Source of the DNA: Rubripirellula amarantea
GTDB lineage: Bacteria; Planctomycetota; Planctomycetia; Pirellulales; Pirellulaceae
Direction of reading: 5' to 3'
Assembly: GCF_007859865.1 (NCBI RefSeq)
Contig: NZ_SJPI01000001.1
Coordinates: 558,001-622,000 of the forward strand
DNA: 64,000 bases
Shown: positions 36,824-53,179 of the stretch, piece by piece
Position numbering within the stretch: the first letter of the stretch is position 1
Layout of the letters: every line of letters starts with the position of its first letter
Notes under the pieces: generated by a model
What the model was told of the DNA's origin: nothing
Seen by the model: only the letters and a program-made list of their open reading frames with translations
Database searches by the model: none
Position numbers and translations under genes: made by a program

Positions 36824-39800
36824 ATGAAGTCCATTATCCGCGCATCGATTCTGAATTCGTCAGCGCTAAATCTGTGCATGGTGTCGATGATGGTCGTCGG
36901 CTGGTTCTGCTTGCGTGCTATGCAACGCGAATCGTTTCCTGAGTTTGACCTCGATCGAATATCGGTTGTTGTTCCGTATCCCGGGGCGGCCCCGCAAGAA
37001 GTCGAAGAGGGCATCGCTCAAAAAATTGAAGAAGCGGTGCGGGCTATCGAAGGCATCAAGAAAGTAACGTCCACTGCTTCGGAAGGTTCATGCAGCGTCA
37101 CCCTTGAATTGGTGTCCGGTGGTCGAAAGCCCGATCGCGTACTCGATGAAGTGCGAAGTGAGATTGATCGCATCCCCAGCTTTCCTCTCGAAGCCGAAGA
37201 GCCGCAAATAACACTGTTGACCAACCGCAGAGCCTCCATACGCATCGGCATCATTGCGCCCAAGCGAGATTCGCGTCAGTCAGGTCCCCTTAGCATTGAT
37301 GTCGACGAAGAATTGCAATTACGAGAAGTCGCCGAGCGAGTTCGCGATGGATTGCTAGAGATCAACGAAGTATCGCAAGTCGATTTCTTGGCCGCTCGGC
37401 AATATCAGATCGACATCGAAATTCCCGAAGACAACCTGCGGTCCCACGGCATGACACTTCGCCAGGCCGCCGATGCGATCCGACGCGAAAATCGTGAACT
37501 GCCCGCCGGATCCATTCGCAGCCAATCGCAAGAGGTGCTGCTGCGAGGCAATAACCGTCGAACCAATGGACCGGAACTAGCAGAATTGCCTCTGGTAACC
37601 GAACCCGGTGGCGGTGTGTTGACGGTTGGTGACTTGGGAACGGTGCGGGATGAGTTTGCCGATTCAACGGCTATCAACTTCATCAATGGTAAACCGGCGC
37701 TCGCGATGTCGGTGCAACGCAGCACATCCGAAGACTTGTTCGCGATGATCGACGCAGTCAAGGAATACATCGACAACGTATCGCTGCCGCCGGGTTACGA
37801 ACTCGTTACGTGGGGCGACGAGTCCATCGAGGTGCGAGGACGATTAGATCTACTGATCCGCAATGGTATCCAAGGGCTGGTCATCGTTTTTGTTCTCTTG
37901 ATGTTGTTCCTGGACCCCAAGCTCGCATTTTGGGTAGCGCTAGGAATTCCGTTTTCTCTATTAGGTTCCGGGGTGTTCTTGTACCTGACTGGTCAAACAC
38001 TTAACCAAATTTCGATGTTTGCCTTCGTGATGGCTTTAGGCATCGTTGTCGATGACGCTATCGTGGTGGGCGAGAACATTTTCGCCCACCGGCAAATGGG
38101 AAAATCGTACTTCCAGGCTGCAATGGATGGCACCTATGAAGTGATACCGTCGGTCACGACCGCCGTGTTGACGACGGTTGTCGCGTTTGCACCGTTGTTG
38201 TTTGTCAGTGGAACGATGGGCAAATTTACGGCAGTGATGCCGGCCGCGATCATTGCGATGCTGTTTGTGTCATTGATCGAATGCGTCACGATCCTACCCT
38301 GTCACTTGGCACACAAAGAAAGCGGACTTTTTAGATTTTTCAATGTCGTCTTTTTCGCGTTCAAGTGGTTGTTGATTCCTGCTTCGTACGCGAACCGTGC
38401 GGGCACTTACTTGTTGGACTTGTATGTCCGTCGTATTTACTCGCCGACACTACGGCTTAGTCTTAACAATCGCATGGTCGTGATGGCGATGTGCGTAGGA
38501 GTCTTAATCTTAGCGGCGGGGCTCAAGAAGGCTGGCTTCATCAAGCAAAGCTTCTTTCCCAGCGTGGATGGAAACACGCTAACGGCGAACGTCGTCTTTC
38601 CTGACGGAACACCGGAAGCGATGACCTTAGCTGCCACACAGCAATGCGAAGATGCCTTCTGGAAAGTAGTGGAGGATTTGGAGAAAGAAGGCAAGCAGAT
38701 CGCCAAGACCTCTTATCGAGTGGTCGGAACATCAGTTTCGGGAGGTGGATTTGGCGGGTCGTCCGGTGGATCGGGTGGACATCGCGGCAGCGTCGAGGTC
38801 GAACTCGTCAAGGCGGAAGACCGAGGCGTCCACAGTCGAGAAATCGTCAGCCGTTGGCGCGACGCGGTTGGACCAATCATTGGCACCGAAGAATTGAGCA
38901 TTGGAACTCGTTCATTCGGCCCCGGGGGAACACCTATCGAGTTCAAGATCTTAGGTCCTTCCGCAGCCGTCGCCGATATCGACGCCGCTGTTGAGCGAAG
39001 CAAAGCCAAGTTAGCAGAGTACCCGGGCGTCTCAGACATCAAAGACGATTCGGTACCTGGGAAATGGGAGTACCGTTTTCGTATCAAACCCGAAGCGTTT
39101 GCTATGGGTGTTCGCACCGCTGACCTTGCCGAAACGGTTCGCGCGGCATACTACGGCGAAGAGGTGATGCGAGTTCAACGCGGCCGCCATGAAGTCAAAA
39201 TCATGGTCACGTATCCTCGCGAGGATCGCCGGCTACTTTCCAACTTTGACGAGGTACGCGTGCGTTTGGAAGACGGTGCTGAGCGCCCGATCACTCAACT
39301 TGCCGAGATTGATGTTGTCCGCGGCTATGCCCAAATCAATCGCACCGACCAAGCTCGCACCATCACCGTTTCGGCAGACTTGGATGAAGATGAAGGCAAC
39401 GCTGAAGAAATCGTTGCTGACCTGCAAGCTAATTTTCAACCCGCATTGCTGGCTGAGTTCCCCGATCTGCGAGTGCGCTGGGAAGGTCAACAAGAACGAC
39501 GCAGCGAATCTTTTGGAAGTCTGTTCGCAGGTTTCGGCGTAGCTCTAGTCGCGATGTACATTCTGCTGGCGATCGAGTTCAAGTCGTCGATACAGCCACT
39601 GCTAGTGATGCTAATCATCCCGTTTGGAGCACTTGGTGCCGTCGCCGGCCATATGTTGATGGGATTGCCGCTCACTCTGTTTAGCTTCTATGGCATCATC
39701 GCGTTGACCGGCATCGTGGTGAACGATTCCATTGTCTTGATCGACTTTATTAATGCGAGAGTTCGGGAAGGAATGCCGATCCGAGAAGCCTTAGAAGAAT

Positions 39801-40099
39801 CTGGTATACGACGTTTTCGTCCCGTGATGCTAACCACGATCACAACGATCGGTGGCTTGATACCGATCTTGATGGAGTCATCCATTCAGGCCCAGATCTT
39901 GATTCCCATGGCAACTAGCATTGCGTTTGGCGAGCTATTCGCAACGATCGTAGTCCTTTACCTAGTACCGGTGACGTATTCGATCTATCACAGCGCTGGC
40001 GGACACCTGGATGTTCAAGAGTACGTTGAAGATGAAATCGGTCCTTCAACCGACGTTTCCTTAGCTGACAAACGCGAGCCTTCGCTGGAACACGCTTGA
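36824..40099 (+). CDS. RND-family efflux transporter (AcrB-like)
   Basis: Proton-driven inner-membrane pump of 1091 aa with the normal double layout: a first helix, a large periplasmic loop, five more helices, a second helix-loop unit and a final helix bundle. The proton-relay motif in TM4 is GIVVDDAIVVGEN; the second half has GIVVNDSIVLIDF. An unusual Gly/Ser-rich loop (GGGFGGSSGGSGGHRG) lies near residue 640-655 in the second periplasmic part. There is no outer-membrane factor in this operon; the nearest is 6.5 kb away with the Alg-like genes. The substrate cannot be told. Confidence 0.94.
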   Translation: MKSIIRASILNSSALNLCMVSMMVVGWFCLRAMQRESFPEFDLDRISVVVPYPGAAPQEVEEGIAQKIEEAVRAIEGIKKVTSTASEGSCSVTLELVSGGRKPDRVLDEVRSEIDRIPSFPLEAEEPQITLLTNRRASIRIGIIAPKRDSRQSGPLSIDVDEELQLREVAERVRDGLLEINEVSQVDFLAARQYQIDIEIPEDNLRSHGMTLRQAADAIRRENRELPAGSIRSQSQEVLLRGNNRRTNGPELAELPLVTEPGGGVLTVGDLGTVRDEFADSTAINFINGKPALAMSVQRSTSEDLFAMIDAVKEYIDNVSLPPGYELVTWGDESIEVRGRLDLLIRNGIQGLVIVFVLLMLFLDPKLAFWVALGIPFSLLGSGVFLYLTGQTLNQISMFAFVMALGIVVDDAIVVGENIFAHRQMGKSYFQAAMDGTYEVIPSVTTAVLTTVVAFAPLLFVSGTMGKFTAVMPAAIIAMLFVSLIECVTILPCHLAHKESGLFRFFNVVFFAFKWLLIPASYANRAGTYLLDLYVRRIYSPTLRLSLNNRMVVMAMCVGVLILAAGLKKAGFIKQSFFPSVDGNTLTANVVFPDGTPEAMTLAATQQCEDAFWKVVEDLEKEGKQIAKTSYRVVGTSVSGGGFGGSSGGSGGHRGSVEVELVKAEDRGVHSREIVSRWRDAVGPIIGTEELSIGTRSFGPGGTPIEFKILGPSAAVADIDAAVERSKAKLAEYPGVSDIKDDSVPGKWEYRFRIKPEAFAMGVRTADLAETVRAAYYGEEVMRVQRGRHEVKIMVTYPREDRRLLSNFDEVRVRLEDGAERPITQLAEIDVVRGYAQINRTDQARTITVSADLDEDEGNAEEIVADLQANFQPALLAEFPDLRVRWEGQQERRSESFGSLFAGFGVALVAMYILLAIEFKSSIQPLLVMLIIPFGALGAVAGHMLMGLPLTLFSFYGIIALTGIVVNDSIVLIDFINARVREGMPIREALEESGIRRFRPVMLTTITTIGGLIPILMESSIQAQILIPMATSIAFGELFATIVVLYLVPVTYSIYHSAGGHLDVQEYVEDEIGPSTDVSLADKREPSLEHA

Positions 40100-46594: not shown

Positions 46595-48145
46595 CTAGAA
46601 ACCGCTGCTGACGTATTCCGTAGACTGGCCCCCGCAGGGTTCGCTGTGCCCGCAAACCGCTTGTTGCCACGCCGTCAATCGAACGTCTCCACCGCCAAGA
46701 GCCTGGAACAAGTCGACCGCCGCCGTGGCCGAATCAGCCCGGGCACGAGCCAACTCAATGGAGCTCCGCAGCAACCTACGCTGGTTGGAAACCACTCGCT
46801 CGAGCGACGCTTTGTCCGCCCCATATTGCTGGCGAGCCAATTCAACGGCCTCGCCTGAATCGTTTACGGTTTGGGTCAGGATTTCGATGCGTCGTCGCTG
46901 TTGGCCCTGCGCCGCCAGCGCGTTTTCGACTTCAGAAACAGCCACCAGCACTGATTGACGATACCGCGCGATGGCCTGCTTGAGCTGCGCCTTTTGAATA
47001 TCGACTTGCGCCTCGATTCGACCGAGCGACAAGATATTCCATGTAACGCCTGGGCCAAAGGCAAAGACAAGTGAATCGTAATCCAGCAAGTTCGAAACTT
47101 TTCGCGAGTCTACCGACACCGTCCCCAGCAAAGACAATCGGGGATAGTACTCCGCTTTGGCGACACCGATTCTGGCGCAAGCCGCAGCAATTTCTCTTTC
47201 GCTACGGCGAACATCGGGACGACGACGAAGCAACTCGGCCGGTACCTCCGGCGAAATCGGCGGCGGTGACAACTGCGACGTCGGTCGCAGTAAGTACGCC
47301 TCACATTCGCTAGGCGTCGTTCCCATCAGCAGAGCAATCAAGTTGTAGCTCTGCTGGATGCCCTGTTCGTAAATGGGTTGATCCGATTCGGTCAATCCGA
47401 TGCGGCTTTGGAGCTGAACCAAATCTAGTCGCGTGACCTGCCCAGCCTCGATCCGATCTTCGACTTCCTCGATGCTATCGCGTTGCACCTTCAAATTGAG
47501 TTGGTTCTGACGAAGTAGTTCTTGGTTGAGGCGTAAGTTGATGTAGGCGCGAGCAATGTCCGCTGCGAGAACGCGGCGAAGGTTTACAAGGTCTTCTTCA
47601 GTCGCTTGGTAATCCGCTTTTGCGGCTTCGGTTTCTCGAGCGATGCGACCGACGATGTCGATCTCCCACCGCGAGTCCACGCCAAGAGAAAAGAAGTGAA
47701 ACGGACTGCCGTTGCTCGCCACGAATGGTTGGGCATTGGAGCTGCGTTTGCGGCGTTCGTATGTTGTAAAGGCATCAGCAAACGGATCAGCTTGGCCACT
47801 GACGATGCGGACCACACTCTTTGCTTCTTGAATCCGCCAAGTCAGCTCGTCGACCGATGGATTATCACGAACACTTCTCGCGATCAGCATCGGAAGGTAT
47901 TCGTCGTTCAAGAAAGACCAATCCGCAGGATGTTCTTGCTGGGCTAGGGCTAAGTTCAGTGCATCGTCCAAACCACTCGTGGATTCGCTTGAAATTTGCG
48001 TGACTGAACCCTCTGCATTGTCACCCAAAAAGCCTGCGTTAAGTGGTGGAGGTTCGACACCCCCATAGTCAGGACCGACTGTTGCGCAACCTGAGTGCAA
48101 AAGCATGAACACGGCCAGCGACAAAGATGCGAAGCCAATCGCCAT
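46595..48145 (-). CDS. TolC/NodT-family outer-membrane efflux lipoprotein
   Basis: A 516-aa outer-membrane channel. ATG 48145 gives a signal helix with Cys 20 (LLHSGCATVGPDY), the usual NodT-type lipoprotein start, though the -3 residue is His. Two homologous OEP halves follow: the first with SRWEIDIVGRIARETEAAKADY, the second with PGVTWNILSLGRIEAQ and a long helical hairpin ending VVSNQRRLLRSSIELA, as in TolC barrels. The C-terminus carries two Cys (CGHSEPC) of unknown role. It is divergent from the Alg44/Alg8-like genes, and I infer it exports their polymer; it could also serve the RND pump 6.5 kb away. Confidence 0.9.
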   Translation of the reverse strand: MAIGFASLSLAVFMLLHSGCATVGPDYGGVEPPPLNAGFLGDNAEGSVTQISSESTSGLDDALNLALAQQEHPADWSFLNDEYLPMLIARSVRDNPSVDELTWRIQEAKSVVRIVSGQADPFADAFTTYERRKRSSNAQPFVASNGSPFHFFSLGVDSRWEIDIVGRIARETEAAKADYQATEEDLVNLRRVLAADIARAYINLRLNQELLRQNQLNLKVQRDSIEEVEDRIEAGQVTRLDLVQLQSRIGLTESDQPIYEQGIQQSYNLIALLMGTTPSECEAYLLRPTSQLSPPPISPEVPAELLRRRPDVRRSEREIAAACARIGVAKAEYYPRLSLLGTVSVDSRKVSNLLDYDSLVFAFGPGVTWNILSLGRIEAQVDIQKAQLKQAIARYRQSVLVAVSEVENALAAQGQQRRRIEILTQTVNDSGEAVELARQQYGADKASLERVVSNQRRLLRSSIELARARADSATAAVDLFQALGGGDVRLTAWQQAVCGHSEPCGGQSTEYVSSGF

Positions 48146-48538
48146 TGAGGTTCGTTCGTGGTAGCGACTGTTTAGATCCACGATACGTCCCCTCCCTAGT
48201 TTCTCGTCATCAAAGCTTAACTGTCTGGTCTCAAGGGATTCTTCGGCACAAAGAGAAGTCGAGTGCCGGGGAAACGTTAACGAAGAAAAAACCAGAAGAA
48301 TCGGAAGAGTCTGCCTAGGCGTTATAGGGAGCAGAAACGGACCTAAGCCGTTTCGAACGGCCCCGATCCCCAACCGCAGCTCGAATCCTGCAGCAAAACA
48401 GGGGGGATGGGGCACCTAGGATACATTTGCATTCTAATTTCGGGCTCGTATTATCCTCGGGTTGAAATTCGCCGTCTCTTACCGGGAAACACCGGTGAGC
48501 TTCGTTTGAATGCCCTTTTCAGTCCACTGGATTTTCCC
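48146..48538. other. Divergent regulatory region of the Alg-like locus
   Basis: 393 bases between the TolC-like and Alg44-like genes. A candidate plus-strand promoter is TTGCAT (48427-48432) with a 17-base spacer and ATTATC (48450-48455), about 80 bases before ATG 48539. I looked for a c-di-GMP riboswitch core and did not find one. Longer readings into this region (from 48407 or 48415) have no protein character. Confidence 0.45.
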
Positions 48539-50308
48539 ATGAAGACCCCCCAGGAACGGATCGACGGTCCGAGCCCGAATCACTACCACCCCTTTAGCAA
48601 TCTAAATGCTTCGACTTCCCGCGGTCGCATGACGTCGGGAACGGTCGCTCTTGGCGAACGAAGTAACACAAGCAACGTTCCACCTCGAAGTCCCCAACGG
48701 TCCACCGGTGAATTCGCAGTGGCGCTGAATCTGGATGACCAACTGTACCAGGTGCTCGATTTCGACGAGTACACGTTTGAAATCCAATCCGAAACGCTTG
48801 CCAAAGAATTCGATCCCAACGCTTCACCTCAAACGCGCCAGGGGACGATTGTCAGCGGCAATGAGAAAGTCGATGTTCAGTTTCGTCCACGTCGCGTTAA
48901 GGGTGATCGCTTGACGATGGGTTTTTACGACTTCTCGATCCAAGGACGCGAGCAACTTCAACGAATTCGCAAGCGAGTTGGATCTGACGGTCGCGACGAA
49001 CTTCACGACATGTCTTACGACGATTTGGCAAAGGGGGGAAAGAAGGAACCCAAGGCTGAAGTAGCTTTGGCACCCAAACGCGCGTCAACGCTAAAGAAGA
49101 TGGCTGCGATGGCGGTGTTGGCTGCATCCATGCTGCTCGTCGCACTTTGGGTCGGGTACATGGTTCAATCACGATCCACAGTCGCGGTGAACAATAGCGT
49201 CATGGTGGGTAACTTCATTCCTGTCAATGCACCCGAGCAAGCACAACTGATTGATGTACTTGTTGAAACTGGTGAAGAAATCAAAGCCGGTCAAACGTTG
49301 GCGCGACTTAGCAATCGAGAGGCCGCCGAAGATCTAGCGATCCTCGAATCGCAACTGAAACGAGCGATGTCCGAAGCTGAAGCGTATCGAAGCGAAGCAG
49401 CCAAAGTCACTGACCTATTCCGCTTTGCGACCATGAAAGTGGAACGCGACATCAACGTGGCCAAAGCAGAAATGCTGAGCGCCGATGCAATGCACTCAGC
49501 CGCTGAAGCACAACTAGCACGTTTGCAACCGTTAATTGCTCGAGGCAACGTTGCGTTAGCTGAAGTGGATGAAGCCAAAGCGATGCTTGCCACGGCCAAC
49601 GCAGAAAAAATCCGTCAAAGTGCGGTGATCGAGACTCTTGCCTTGGCAAAAGAAGCTGCCCAGTCGCAGATCATCATCAACGAAAGCGGAGTGGTGAATC
49701 CGCTGAGCGAACTGCAAACCAAGATTGCCTGCGCCGAGGCGGCAATTAAGGAACTACAGGAAACACGTGATGTGTTGCTTGCTTCGGCCGGACCAATCGA
49801 ACTTCAAGCACCTTCGGACGGGACCGTCTACGCGATCTATCGAAGCGAAGGGGAGACGTTACGAGTCGCTGATCAAATGTTGGCGTTAAGCGCTGAAGAT
49901 GGTGGCTGGGCAACGGGACACGTTGCGGCCTACCTTGCACCCGAGATTCGCCCCGGTCAGCCGGTTGAGATCGAGATACCTTCGCTGGGAATCACGACCG
50001 TTGGGATTGTCGATGGAGTAGGTCATCGCTCGGTTTATGGCCATGGTGGTTACAACGCCGATTTCCGCGGTGGTCCGTTGGAAGTTCCGATTCGTGTAGC
50101 GATTGATTTCGAAGGCCAGCCCGTTCCTTCGGGTCTGCGATTGAACATGACCGTACGAGTGAAGGATCACTTGAAAGACATGAAACGTTGGATCAACGAC
50201 AAGATTGCTGTTTGGCGAGGTGAAACGGTGCCAGGAAGCGACGATTCCGAGCGGCAGGAAACTGCCTCGCTAGGAAAGAAAAAAATCCAAGTCGCAATGA
50301 CGAAGTGA
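48539..50308 (+). CDS. alg44: Alg44-like polysaccharide synthase co-factor (PilZ-like + HlyD-like)
   Basis: A 589-aa protein laid out like Alg44 (389 aa in Pseudomonas). The cytoplasmic part (about 50-180) resembles a PilZ domain: an RxxxR at 50-54 (RSPQR) followed by a strand-rich region. A DFSIQG motif is found at 131-136, but the expected DxSxxG position (DFDEYTF near 74-80) is degenerate, so c-di-GMP binding is uncertain. One membrane helix at 188-208 (AAMAVLAASMLLVALWVGYMV in outline) leads to a periplasmic adaptor part. That part has a lipoyl-like barrel (NFIPVNAPEQAQLIDVLVET), an extended coiled coil (262-445) and a second barrel. In alginate synthesis Alg44 activates and couples the synthase Alg8, the gene that follows 41 bases on. 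Confidence 0.82.
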   Translation: MKTPQERIDGPSPNHYHPFSNLNASTSRGRMTSGTVALGERSNTSNVPPRSPQRSTGEFAVALNLDDQLYQVLDFDEYTFEIQSETLAKEFDPNASPQTRQGTIVSGNEKVDVQFRPRRVKGDRLTMGFYDFSIQGREQLQRIRKRVGSDGRDELHDMSYDDLAKGGKKEPKAEVALAPKRASTLKKMAAMAVLAASMLLVALWVGYMVQSRSTVAVNNSVMVGNFIPVNAPEQAQLIDVLVETGEEIKAGQTLARLSNREAAEDLAILESQLKRAMSEAEAYRSEAAKVTDLFRFATMKVERDINVAKAEMLSADAMHSAAEAQLARLQPLIARGNVALAEVDEAKAMLATANAEKIRQSAVIETLALAKEAAQSQIIINESGVVNPLSELQTKIACAEAAIKELQETRDVLLASAGPIELQAPSDGTVYAIYRSEGETLRVADQMLALSAEDGGWATGHVAAYLAPEIRPGQPVEIEIPSLGITTVGIVDGVGHRSVYGHGGYNADFRGGPLEVPIRVAIDFEGQPVPSGLRLNMTVRVKDHLKDMKRWINDKIAVWRGETVPGSDDSERQETASLGKKKIQVAMTK

Positions 50309-50349
50309 TCATCCAACTATTTAACTCGCACGCTTAGCTTCCTGATTCG

Positions 50350-51861
50350 ATGTCCTCATCCAGTATCCGCTACGACATATCGACAACCGTTCGACTGATC
50401 AAAACACTGCCGATCATCGGGGCATACCTATTATTGATCGTGCTTGTGTTCATTTCGTTGCCCGAGAAAGCACAACGAATACCGCTTGAATCCATTGTTG
50501 TGATCGGATTCATTGGACTGTTTCGTTATGGATGCGTGTTGACGCACTGTGTTCGTGCAGCCCTCTACGAACACTACATGTATCCGAAGATTCGTTTTCA
50601 AGCGGATCAATTGCCCGCGGAAGAACGCATGCCTAAGCGAGCGTTCTTCATCATTCCAACAGCCGGGGAAAAACCCGAGGTATCTCGTTTGATGCTCGGC
50701 TCGGTTCTCGATGAGGCGGCAACGATTTCGAGTCAAGTGATCATCGTCGTCAACGCAGGCAGCGAGCGAGATGACGCGATCTTTCAAGACCTGCTTGCCG
50801 AGCGTCCTTCGCTACCCAATGTGGAAGTGCGGTACATTCGCCAGCACGGCGGAAAACGTCCCGGCATGGCGGACTGCATGTCTCGATTGATGGACGAAGA
50901 GGTCGATGATAATGATGTGATCATCTTGATGGATGGTGATACCGTCCTGGGCAACGGAATCTTAAACAAGTGCTTTCCGCTTTTTGCCCTTCGTCCCAAG
51001 CTCGGTGCCGTCACGACTGACAATATCTCGGTCACCAAAGGCAATTGGATGTACCGCAAGTGGTACACGCTGCGGTTTTCCATGCGACATCGGATGATGA
51101 AGTCTCAGAGCTTGTCGAGCCAGTTGTTGGTTTTAACCGGCAGGTTCAGCATCATACGAGCCAAAGAAGCTCTTAACGACGAGTTTGTTTCCTATTTGGA
51201 AAACGACCGTATCAAGCACTGGCTGCACGGCGAAATCAAGTTTGTGACTGGCGATGACAAGAGCACGTGGTACTGCTTGCTCAAGCGTGGTTGCGAAATG
51301 TTGTATGTGCCCGACGCTCATATTTTCTGCATGGAAGATTCCGGGCCTAAACCGATCACGATGAGCATCAAGAAGATGCATCGTTGGTTTGGCAACATGC
51401 TTCGCAACAATGGCCGCGCGATTCGGCTGGGACTCGGTTGCCAAAAGCCGTTTATTTGGTGGTGCCATATCGACCAGCGCATTTCGATGTTCACGAGTCT
51501 GTTGGGTCCGATTGCGGCAATTTGGGCCGCGTTTTGGATTTCCCCGTACTACTTAGTGGCATATGGCATGCTGGTAGTGCTGGCCAGACTCATCTACGCC
51601 CTGATCTTGACGCTCGAAGGTCACCGAATGAGCTTCACTGACATTCCGCTTTTGCTTTACACCCAATGGGTCGGCAGTAGCGTGAAAATCTACACGATGT
51701 TTCACCTTCACCGTCAGAAATGGGATTCTCACCGTCAATCAAGCAGCGGAACTCAGGGTTCCAACGAGTCCATCTTTGACGCGCTGATTCCCAAAATGCA
51801 GATGGCCTTTTCTCTCACAATGCTGTTGGTATTTGTCGCAGTCGTGGTCGGTGTCAAATAA
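50350..51861 (+). CDS. alg8: Alg8-like processive glycosyltransferase (polyuronate synthase-like)
   Basis: A 503-aa membrane glycosyltransferase of family 2, very similar in layout to Alg8, which polymerises mannuronate from GDP-mannuronate. N-terminal helices at about 20-37 and 47-65 precede the GT domain. The motifs are ILMDGDTVLGNG (Asp 195, Asp 197, metal and nucleotide), VTTDNISVTKGNW, LVLTGRFSIIRA, the catalytic-base region TGDDKSTWYCLLKRG (300-315) and MHRWFGNMLRNNGRA, the QxxRW equivalent. Several C-terminal helices follow, ending with VKIYTMFHLHRQKW. These stretches line up with Pseudomonas Alg8 throughout. The substrate sugar is not proven; a polyuronate is the best guess given the neighbouring lyase. 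Confidence 0.9.
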   Translation: MSSSSIRYDISTTVRLIKTLPIIGAYLLLIVLVFISLPEKAQRIPLESIVVIGFIGLFRYGCVLTHCVRAALYEHYMYPKIRFQADQLPAEERMPKRAFFIIPTAGEKPEVSRLMLGSVLDEAATISSQVIIVVNAGSERDDAIFQDLLAERPSLPNVEVRYIRQHGGKRPGMADCMSRLMDEEVDDNDVIILMDGDTVLGNGILNKCFPLFALRPKLGAVTTDNISVTKGNWMYRKWYTLRFSMRHRMMKSQSLSSQLLVLTGRFSIIRAKEALNDEFVSYLENDRIKHWLHGEIKFVTGDDKSTWYCLLKRGCEMLYVPDAHIFCMEDSGPKPITMSIKKMHRWFGNMLRNNGRAIRLGLGCQKPFIWWCHIDQRISMFTSLLGPIAAIWAAFWISPYYLVAYGMLVVLARLIYALILTLEGHRMSFTDIPLLLYTQWVGSSVKIYTMFHLHRQKWDSHRQSSSGTQGSNESIFDALIPKMQMAFSLTMLLVFVAVVVGVK

Positions 51862-51913
51862 ATTGAAACGCTGAACTTGATTCATCGTCCCGAATTCCAA
51901 CCCCAAAACACCC

Positions 51914-52726
51914 ATGATCGCCTGTACTGCAATTGTCGGCTTTCTCCTGCTAGCAGCGGGATGGATCTTTCCTGCGGCGGCTTTGCCGGAGGGTGTTGTC
52001 ACCGAAGCCGAACTAAAAGAGCACTGTCCCAAGTTGCTTTGGTCGGACCTCTACGACCGCTTAGAACTTTTTCGAACAGAAAACGGCAGAGATTCCCGAT
52101 CAACTCAGTCGAACACGTTGGGGAATGAGCCAACCACGACGCAAGAAATTCTTCGGGTAAGGTATCCCAAAGGAGGCGTGGGAACGCGGAACAGTGGCGC
52201 CCAAATGATGTTCGAACTCGAACCATCGAAAGCTGCGGTTTGTGAGTACCGCGTGCGTTTTGCCGAGAATTTTGAGTTTGTCAAAGGCGGCAAACTACCC
52301 GGGCTCGCGGGCGGGGAGGCGACGTCGGGTCTCGTGAAGCCCAATGGTGATGGATGGACCGCGCGACTGATGTGGCGAAAACGCGGCGCGGCGGTGCTTT
52401 ATCTTTATCACATGGATCAACGCAAACGGCAGGGTGAAGACTTTCCACTTTACGTAACGTTTCGGCCGGGTAAGTGGTATCAGATCCGTGAAGAGGTTCG
52501 CGTGAATGACCCCGGTCAACGCAATGGTCGGATACGTATCTGGATCAACGGCGAACTAGCACTCGATCAAGAATCACTAAGGCTGCGAAGCGGCAACCAA
52601 GCACCGGTGGATCGGTTCTACTTCAGCACGTTCTTCGGTGGTAGCGGTGACGATTGGGCTCCGCATCGTGATCAAGTGATTGACTTTTCGGAAATTAAAG
52701 TCAACTCATTAGACGTCATCCGGTAA
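51914..52726 (+). CDS. Secreted polysaccharide lyase, PL14-like
   Basis: A 270-aa exported protein with a signal peptide (cleavage near AAALPEG). The jelly-roll contains the PL14 hallmarks KGGKLPGLAGG (124-134), WTARLMWRKRG, YLYHMDQR, FRPGKWYQIREEVRVND and FYFSTFFGGSGDDWAP. PL14 enzymes cleave alginate or glucuronan by beta-elimination. From memory their catalytic set is Lys, Ser, Arg, Tyr, Tyr; here Lys 127, Arg 151, Tyr 163 and Tyr 165 are found, while the Ser position is Thr 149. As the third gene of the Alg44-Alg8-like run (53 bases after alg8) it likely edits or clears the polymer in the periplasm, as AlgL does, though it is unrelated to AlgL. Confidence 0.85.
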   Translation: MIACTAIVGFLLLAAGWIFPAAALPEGVVTEAELKEHCPKLLWSDLYDRLELFRTENGRDSRSTQSNTLGNEPTTTQEILRVRYPKGGVGTRNSGAQMMFELEPSKAAVCEYRVRFAENFEFVKGGKLPGLAGGEATSGLVKPNGDGWTARLMWRKRGAAVLYLYHMDQRKRQGEDFPLYVTFRPGKWYQIREEVRVNDPGQRNGRIRIWINGELALDQESLRLRSGNQAPVDRFYFSTFFGGSGDDWAPHRDQVIDFSEIKVNSLDVIR

Positions 52727-52825: not shown

Positions 52826-53179
52826 ATGACGGAGTGTTTCTTGGACGAAGGTTGTTACGGCATGGACCCCTCAAAAATAAAAGTCGGTGATTGGGTAATC
52901 TACCGAAAGCAAAAAAGCAGCAAGGCGCCTGGCCCGCGTGCCGTCGACGTACGCGCTTCAAGCGGCGGCGAGACCTACCAGTACATGGTTGATAAGTTCT
53001 GGGTGGTGGAAGAGGTCCACGACGATGGGATCCTGCTGCGAACTCGACGGGGCAAGCAAAATACCATTCCCTTTGATGACCCACGACTTAGAATCCCGTC
53101 CTGGTGGGAAAAGCTGATCTATCGTCAACGGTTTCTTGAAGTCGCCAACGGAAACGAGCTATCTACGTCCGACCAGTAG
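52826..53179 (+). CDS. Hypothetical protein, conserved in planctomycetes
   Basis: A 117-aa protein (105 aa if it starts at ATG 52862, MDPSKIKVGDWVIYRKQK). It is basic and beta-rich, with PGPRAVDVRASSGGETYQY, a KFWVVEEVHDDGILLRTRRGK strand pair and WWEKLIYRQRFLEV. This pattern looks like a small SH3/KOW-like barrel. Similar proteins are widespread in planctomycetes without a known role. It follows the PL14-like gene by 99 bases on the same strand, so it may be expressed with the polysaccharide genes. Confidence 0.78.
   Translation: MTECFLDEGCYGMDPSKIKVGDWVIYRKQKSSKAPGPRAVDVRASSGGETYQYMVDKFWVVEEVHDDGILLRTRRGKQNTIPFDDPRLRIPSWWEKLIYRQRFLEVANGNELSTSDQ

Follow-up and report, generated by a model that had tools for sequence, protein, structure and literature searches.

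Introduction

One of the closest known relatives of the system analyzed here is the alginate machine of Pseudomonas and Azotobacter (AlgD, Alg8, Alg44, AlgK, AlgE, AlgG, AlgX, AlgL and others). We examine a 64,000-nucleotide stretch of the Rubripirellula amarantea genome (Pirellulaceae; contig NZ_SJPI01000001.1, positions 558,001 to 622,000), hereafter the window, in which positions 46595-52726 encode a NodT/TolC-family channel, an Alg44-like adaptor, an Alg8-like family 2 glycosyltransferase (GT2) and a polysaccharide lyase of family 14 (PL14). Like the alginate machine, this locus combines an Alg8-family synthase with an Alg44 protein of PilZ fold, transmembrane (TM) helix and membrane-fusion part, and a lyase is encoded beside the synthase genes. 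Unlike it, R. amarantea has no recognizable GDP-mannose dehydrogenase (GMD, AlgD), no AlgX, no AlgL of lyase family PL5 and no AlgE in an alginate context, and shows a TolC-family channel and an Alg44 with a long hairpin and broken PilZ motifs.

In cyanobacteria, cellulose secretion by XcsA-XcsB-TolC has been proposed (Maeda 2018, reviewed in PMC12430437); the genes are scattered in T. vulcanus, and the review describes the route as experimentally unproven (PMC12430437). Both systems comprise a GT2 synthase, a HlyD-like adaptor, a TolC-like channel and a polymer-cutting enzyme. In R. amarantea, however, a polyuronate-type synthase and a lyase stand in for cellulose synthase and endoglucanase, the PilZ fold lies on the adaptor instead of the synthase, and the channel gene is adjacent. 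Here the genes for synthase, adaptor and channel adjoin each other and are conserved, and the adaptor fold fits, as known from the genes and a monomer model. Tripartite exporters of the EmrAB-TolC/HlyD type share the adaptor fold and the TolC-family channel, but their inner-membrane partner is a transporter and not a polysaccharide synthase. A Halomonas cluster (UGD-Alg8-Alg44-PL14-PL5-Sel1, where UGD is UDP-glucose dehydrogenase; loci L046, L080, L097 and L186) likewise links PL14 to Alg8 and Alg44, with UDP-glucuronic acid (UDP-GlcA) as the inferred donor. There, the PilZ motifs are intact and the hairpin is shorter, the cluster adds an AlgK-like Sel1 protein and a PL5 lyase, and no adjacent TolC-family gene is seen.

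We propose, as the reading that the evidence moderately favors, that the R. amarantea locus produces and exports a polyuronate by a synthase-dependent Alg8/Alg44-type route. In it, a TolC-family channel would replace AlgK and AlgE, PL14 would replace AlgL, and the polymer would more likely be glucuronan than alginate. All parts come from known families. A literature search, mostly outside subscription journals, found nothing on Alg8 or Alg44 in planctomycetes or with glucuronic polymers, and as far as that literature shows, the combination of Alg8/Alg44, PL14 and a likely UDP-GlcA donor is a new variation on a type of system already known.

A conserved four-gene locus

The R. amarantea genome (6.9 Mb, 99.56% complete) belongs to the same genus as Rubripirellula obstinata. 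In the window, the NodT gene lies on the minus strand, divergent from the Alg44-like, Alg8-like and PL14 genes, all on the plus strand. The original prediction had described a synthesis locus of the Alg8/Alg44 type that also encodes a TolC-family channel and a lyase of family PL14, and domains, folds and gene order bear this out. Its four open reading frames (ORFs), including the divergent channel gene, lie where it placed them, as does the gap of 41 bases between the Alg44-like and Alg8-like genes; the gap between the Alg8-like and PL14 genes is 52 bases, not 53. It had also assigned each gene a family match, which holds for NodT, HlyD_3, Glyco_tranf_2_3 and PL14, whereas the GT2 matches no Alg8-specific model in Pfam or NCBIfam. 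Our confidence in the anatomy of the locus is high.

The four-gene block is kept in Rubripirellula, in K23_9 and in a third Pirellulaceae genus, and since the order is conserved in these relatives it is not due to chance. PL14 lies 3' of Alg8 in the window and in R. obstinata and K23_9, as it does at two loci belonging to the third genus (there fused to a beta-helix), and on the NodT side in L016 and L025. Among 241 Pirellulaceae genomes, Alg8 occurs in nine, and Alg44 in the same nine plus one weak match. PL14 (E<1e-25) is present in 21 of the 241, comprising all 9 with Alg8 and 12 of the 232 others (Fisher 4.5e-11, without correction for kinship). In a sample of the phylum, 3 of 392 genomes carry Alg8, and so uneven a distribution suggests either acquisition by transfer or recurrent loss. 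The system is not proper to planctomycetes, as had been supposed: it is rare there, and linkage of PL14 with Alg8 extends to cyanobacteria, to Halomonas and to a single unplaced proteobacterium.

Synthase

The GT2 matches Glyco_tranf_2_3 in Pfam (8.4e-27) and carries the motifs DGD at residue 195, TGDDKSTW at 300 and RWFGNMLRNN at 345. It is 36-87% identical to Alg8 relatives that adjoin Alg44. Many of their loci also include a neighboring nucleotide-sugar dehydrogenase. As the Alg8 reference we used Pseudomonadales genomes with dehydrogenase-alg8-alg44-algK(Sel1) loci, the known order of the alginate operon. In an unrooted tree with SH-aLRT support only and no outgroup synthases, the window protein falls into a Planctomycetota/Verrucomicrobia clade (support 100). 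The other clades are a marine GMD-linked form, a cyanobacterial PL14 form and a Halomonas form that is sister to the Pseudomonas operon type. Judged by its relatives in canonical algD-alg8-alg44-algK loci, the GT2 is an Alg8-family synthase. It seems not to be a cellulose, poly-N-acetylglucosamine (PNAG) or hyaluronan synthase, since its sole NCBIfam match is PgaC at 19 bits (cut-off 422), and no other synthase model matched it. A grouping with cellulose or hyaluronan synthases, which would have spoken against the original prediction, is not what these model searches indicate.

Longer Alg8 proteins of ~890-920 residues with a beta-helix-looking C-terminal extension (L020:10109-12784, L031, L032, L033, L037 and L203) occur in Desulfovibrionaceae, in Campylobacterales and in a planctomycete of the anammox type. 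A gene with SPOR and weak OEP matches follows 3' of the extended Alg8 of L037.

Lyase

The PL14 protein matches PF21294 (1.9e-46), the solved PL14 alginate lyases 5gmt (4.7e-18) and 6kcw, and the solved PL14 lyase 3a0n. Alignment places K127, T149, R151, Y163 and Y165 at the catalytic positions, so that the domain carries the catalytic Lys, Ser/Thr-x-Arg and Tyr of the family. We take these positions to correspond to K99, S126, R128, Y140 and Y142 of AkAly30. Another PL14 enzyme, vAL-1, reportedly cleaves at glucuronate in the Chlorella cell wall.

A second, unlinked PL14 gene is found in R. amarantea beside a thioredoxin-like gene (L220:9133-10104; G000:C2:1537653-1538279), and most other Alg8-bearing genomes also hold extra copies. 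In the third Pirellulaceae genus, PL14 is fused to a right-handed beta-helix of the NosD/Beta_helix kind (L015:7826-9805 and L017:9628-11436), which could be an epimerase-like or binding module.

Donor sugar and polymer

Alginate synthesis requires GMD. A genome search with PF03721 yields two full-length dehydrogenases above the cut-off in R. amarantea, a UGD and one of the UDP-N-acetylhexosamine (HexNAc) type, and neither search nor tree reveals a recognizable GMD in this genome. In the dehydrogenase tree, the GMD and UGD clades are supported by 98/97 and 99/97, and the HexNAc clade is separate. The same search finds UGD and no GMD in the Alg8-bearing Pirellulaceae genomes of R. amarantea (G000), G556, G494, G500, G517 and G636, in the planctomycete G634, in a Verrucomicrobiia metagenome-assembled genome (MAG) and in 5 of 6 cyanobacteria; two draft genomes gave zero dehydrogenase matches. 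In G500 and G517, UGD is the only full-length member of the superfamily. The dehydrogenase beside the Halomonas alg8-PL14 genes is also a UGD (578.7 bits to 2y0e, 211.6 to the GMD 1mfz). A true GMD (1mfz 313.7 vs 218.1) adjoins Alg44-Alg8 in a distant planctomycete with no PL14 at the locus. Since GMD is missing and UGD stands beside alg8 in Halomonas, UDP-GlcA appears the likelier donor over GDP-mannuronic acid (GDP-ManA), and we hold with moderate confidence that the polymer is polyglucuronate (glucuronan) rather than alginate. Glucuronan is poly-beta-1,4-GlcA made from UDP-GlcA, and alginate derives from GDP-ManA.

The distant planctomycete (L021:6243-12331) has the order GMD-Alg44(PilZ)-Alg8, after which a protein with a VWA domain is encoded. 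The phylum thereby shows a second arrangement, one that resembles the alginate type.

These data argue against alginate as the product named in the original prediction; of the two dehydrogenases it would have accepted as support, UGD is present and GMD is not. Its view that AlgE, AlgK, AlgX and AlgL are lacking holds genome-wide for AlgX/AlgJ (PF16822) and PL5 AlgL (PF05426), both absent by family search, and for AlgK at the locus, to which the search with a purpose-built hidden Markov model was confined. An AlgE porin in an alginate context was not found in the genome by PF13372, a search that covers AlgE proteins resembling this family. The sole PF13372 hit (G000:C1:910800-911942) was rejected as an alginate porin, as it sits beside nitrate ABC transporter genes. 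This 'Alginate_exp' porin (L125:8297-9991; G000:C1:910297-911991) has such neighbors, by inspection, in K23_9 too, and its Pfam name is misleading.

Several observations weigh against glucuronan. UGD is common and serves many pathways, so that only the missing GMD and the Halomonas linkage favor UDP-GlcA. In the Alg8 tree, not every UGD-linked form stands apart from the GMD form of Pseudomonas, the sister of the Halomonas group, and the 6 Alg8 columns that separate GMD-linked from UGD-linked proteins are within the range of other splits of the same clades. The cyanobacterium Limnofasciculus (G625) combines a PL14-linked Alg8 and UGD with a GMD-like gene on a long branch, and the Rhizobium plasmid Alg8 loci examined are GMD-linked. 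Characterized PL14 enzymes, among them the solved matches, are mostly named alginate lyases, Alg8 and Alg44 are alginate enzymes by family, and in the Halomonas clusters this PL14 is accompanied by PL5, whose family has been described as specific for mannuronate (PMC8286568). These last points would suit an alginate or polymannuronate system in which an unrecognized or bifunctional dehydrogenase supplies GDP-ManA and PL14 serves as an ordinary alginate lyase in place of AlgL. We regard such a system as unlikely, given the lack of GMD in R. amarantea and in four other Alg8-bearing Pirellulaceae genomes checked, the local UGD in Halomonas, and the GMD gene that often lies near Alg8 elsewhere.

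The Rhizobium megaplasmid loci were considered as glucuronan genes and rejected, their dehydrogenase being GMD and their type hence that of alginate. None of the 14 plasmid records that contain an Alg8 relative comes from Sinorhizobium, in a search of plasmids and not of the S. meliloti chromosome, and the S. meliloti megaplasmids therefore give no support.

Adaptor and outer-membrane channel

Sequence searches reveal only the adaptor part of the Alg44-like protein (HlyD_3, 5.6e-8), and the Pfam PilZ model does not match it. An AlphaFold (AF2) model built from 13 relatives (mean predicted local distance difference test score 70, most folded blocks 70-96) shows an N-terminal beta domain, a helix of membrane-crossing type (residues 228-255) and a membrane-fusion part with a long hairpin. 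Residues 103-195 superpose on the P. aeruginosa Alg44 PilZ structure 4rt1_B (Z 11.6, root-mean-square deviation 2.2, 88 of 108 residues), and the membrane-fusion part matches EmrA (4tko, Z 16.9), EmrAB-TolC (8zar, E 4e-18), HlyD and MacA. With an N-terminal PilZ domain, a TM helix and a periplasmic membrane-fusion domain in the model, the second gene is Alg44-like by predicted fold.

The cyclic di-GMP (c-di-GMP) motifs of this domain are not preserved. DFDEYT replaces DxSxxG, and the sole RxxxR, RSPQR (residues 93-97), is not conserved in relatives. Broken motifs are seen across Pirellulaceae, whereas Halomonas and the distant planctomycete L021 keep them intact. Because its motifs are broken, the R. 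amarantea protein is probably no longer under c-di-GMP control. In cyanobacterial Alg44-like proteins (L043:7760-9877, L047:119-2236 and L086:7733-9856), an EAL domain takes the place of PilZ (PF00563, 2e-48 and 3e-44 in the two scanned), and proteins of the Leptolyngbya type lack an N-terminal domain altogether. Lineages appear to have swapped the second-messenger module that Alg44 carries.

The hairpin region is modeled as helices 304-378, 384-419 and 432-460. Between the lipoyl halves, most Pirellulaceae Alg44s have ~169-175 residues, as compared with a few dozen in the Pseudomonas type, and the hairpin is expected to be of the sort that docks on TolC. Its length also qualifies the proposed export route: a long hairpin is no proof of a TolC partner by itself, since GMD-linked marine Alg44s, which have no adjacent TolC-family gene, reach ~168 residues.

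The channel protein scores 2.9e-85 with TIGR01845, above the cut-off, and 1.8e-45 with OEP (PF02321). It has two OEP repeats and an N-terminal lipoprotein signal, with a lipobox-like LLHSGC read in the translation. The gene is adjacent and divergent in Pirellulaceae loci of three genera, and an OEP gene occupies its place in the Verrucomicrobiia MAG locus. No TolC-family gene is seen adjacent to alg8 in the cyanobacterial and Halomonas loci; the adjacency does look specific to the Pirellulaceae/Verrucomicrobia set. We consider export of the polymer through this TolC-family channel, with Alg44 presumably docking on NodT, to be moderately supported. NodT might instead be an unrelated efflux channel that happens to neighbor the synthase, with the polymer leaving by another way. 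The loci with no adjacent channel gene would fit this, as would the resistance-nodulation-division (RND) pump gene at 36824-40099 of the window, which shows that other NodT partners exist. Such an arrangement is improbable, however, in view of the recurrent adjacency, the modeled hairpin and the lack, in the window, of any further adaptor or pump gene immediately next to NodT.

The annotated starts of NodT and the Alg44-like gene overlap and are probably both too early. The true NodT start is more likely ATG 48145, which gives the lipoprotein signal ...LLHSGCATVGPDYGG. Alg44 probably starts at or after ATG 48539, because the AF2 model shows no structure for residues 1-101 of the long ORF. A promoter scan of the divergent region gave one sigma70-like match (48426-48454), below the 3.5 expected by chance.

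Proposed mechanism

The donor sugar, the polymer, the contact of Alg44 with NodT and the part played by the lyase are inferred from these data. The Alg8-like GT2 would polymerize a uronic acid from a nucleotide sugar in the inner membrane and thread the chain across it. The Alg44-like protein would act as co-polymerase, with its PilZ-fold domain in the cytosol and its long periplasmic hairpin docked on the NodT lipoprotein channel, and PL14 may cut chains that have strayed or been completed, whether in the periplasm or beyond it. That the polymer is neutral or mixed (cellulose-like or containing HexNAc uronic acid) and PL14 acts on something else is very unlikely: the HexNAc-type dehydrogenase in G000, G556 and G494 and the 12 family genomes with PL14 and no Alg8 would allow it, but G500 and G517 lack a full-length enzyme of this type, the synthase barely registers with PgaC and with no cellulose or hyaluronan model, and several phyla show physical linkage of PL14 and Alg8.

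The compact planctomycete gene set looks able to make an acidic sugar polymer, export it by way of a TolC-type channel and shorten it with a lyase of its own. It would provide a compact case of the coupling of a polysaccharide synthase to a TolC-family channel that has been proposed for cyanobacterial cellulose. It also offers a concrete candidate for the genes of glucuronan biosynthesis, which were stated to be unknown in 2023 (PMC10180729). More broadly, the data suggest that Alg8 and Alg44 are not confined to alginate and form a family of polyuronate synthases. Its branches would vary in the donor sugar they use, in exit channel and lyase, and in the second-messenger domain. Tentatively, and with somewhat less assurance than for the locus itself, the PL14- and UGD-linked Alg8 branches of Pirellulaceae, cyanobacteria and Halomonas may be bacterial glucuronan synthases, with the planctomycete polymer leaving by a dedicated Alg44-NodT tripartite channel.

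Features and neighboring genes

Table 1. Features of the R. amarantea locus, in window coordinates.
Feature	Position	Strand	Basis
NodT/TolC-family outer-membrane channel lipoprotein	46595..48415	-	TIGR01845, OEP PF02321, lipobox-like LLHSGC, adjacency in Pirellulaceae relatives
Divergent intergenic region between likely NodT and Alg44 starts	48146..48538	.	Sequence; promoters expected
Alg44-like co-polymerase/adaptor (PilZ-fold domain, one TM helix, periplasmic membrane-fusion part)	48407..50308	+	AF2 model, fold matches
Degenerate PilZ domain of Alg44-like protein, residues 103-195	48713..48991	+	Motif reading, 4rt1_B match
Long alpha-hairpin of Alg44-like protein, residues 304-460; docking on TolC-family channel expected	49316..49786	+	AF2 model
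Alg8-like family 2 glycosyltransferase (synthase)	50350..51861	+	Relatives, tree, motifs
Secreted PL14 polysaccharide lyase, signal-peptide-like N-terminus	51914..52726	+	PF21294, 5gmt, alignment, catalytic residues

A gene for 117 amino acids with no Pfam match follows 3' of PL14 (window 52826-53179), and a look-alike (GDWVIYRKQK...) occupies the same place in R. obstinata (L012:13188-13529). In one Pirellulaceae MAG, an AlgI-like MBOAT gene and a 317-residue partner (L014:11727-14125) lie a few genes from Alg8 and are a possible O-acetylation pair.

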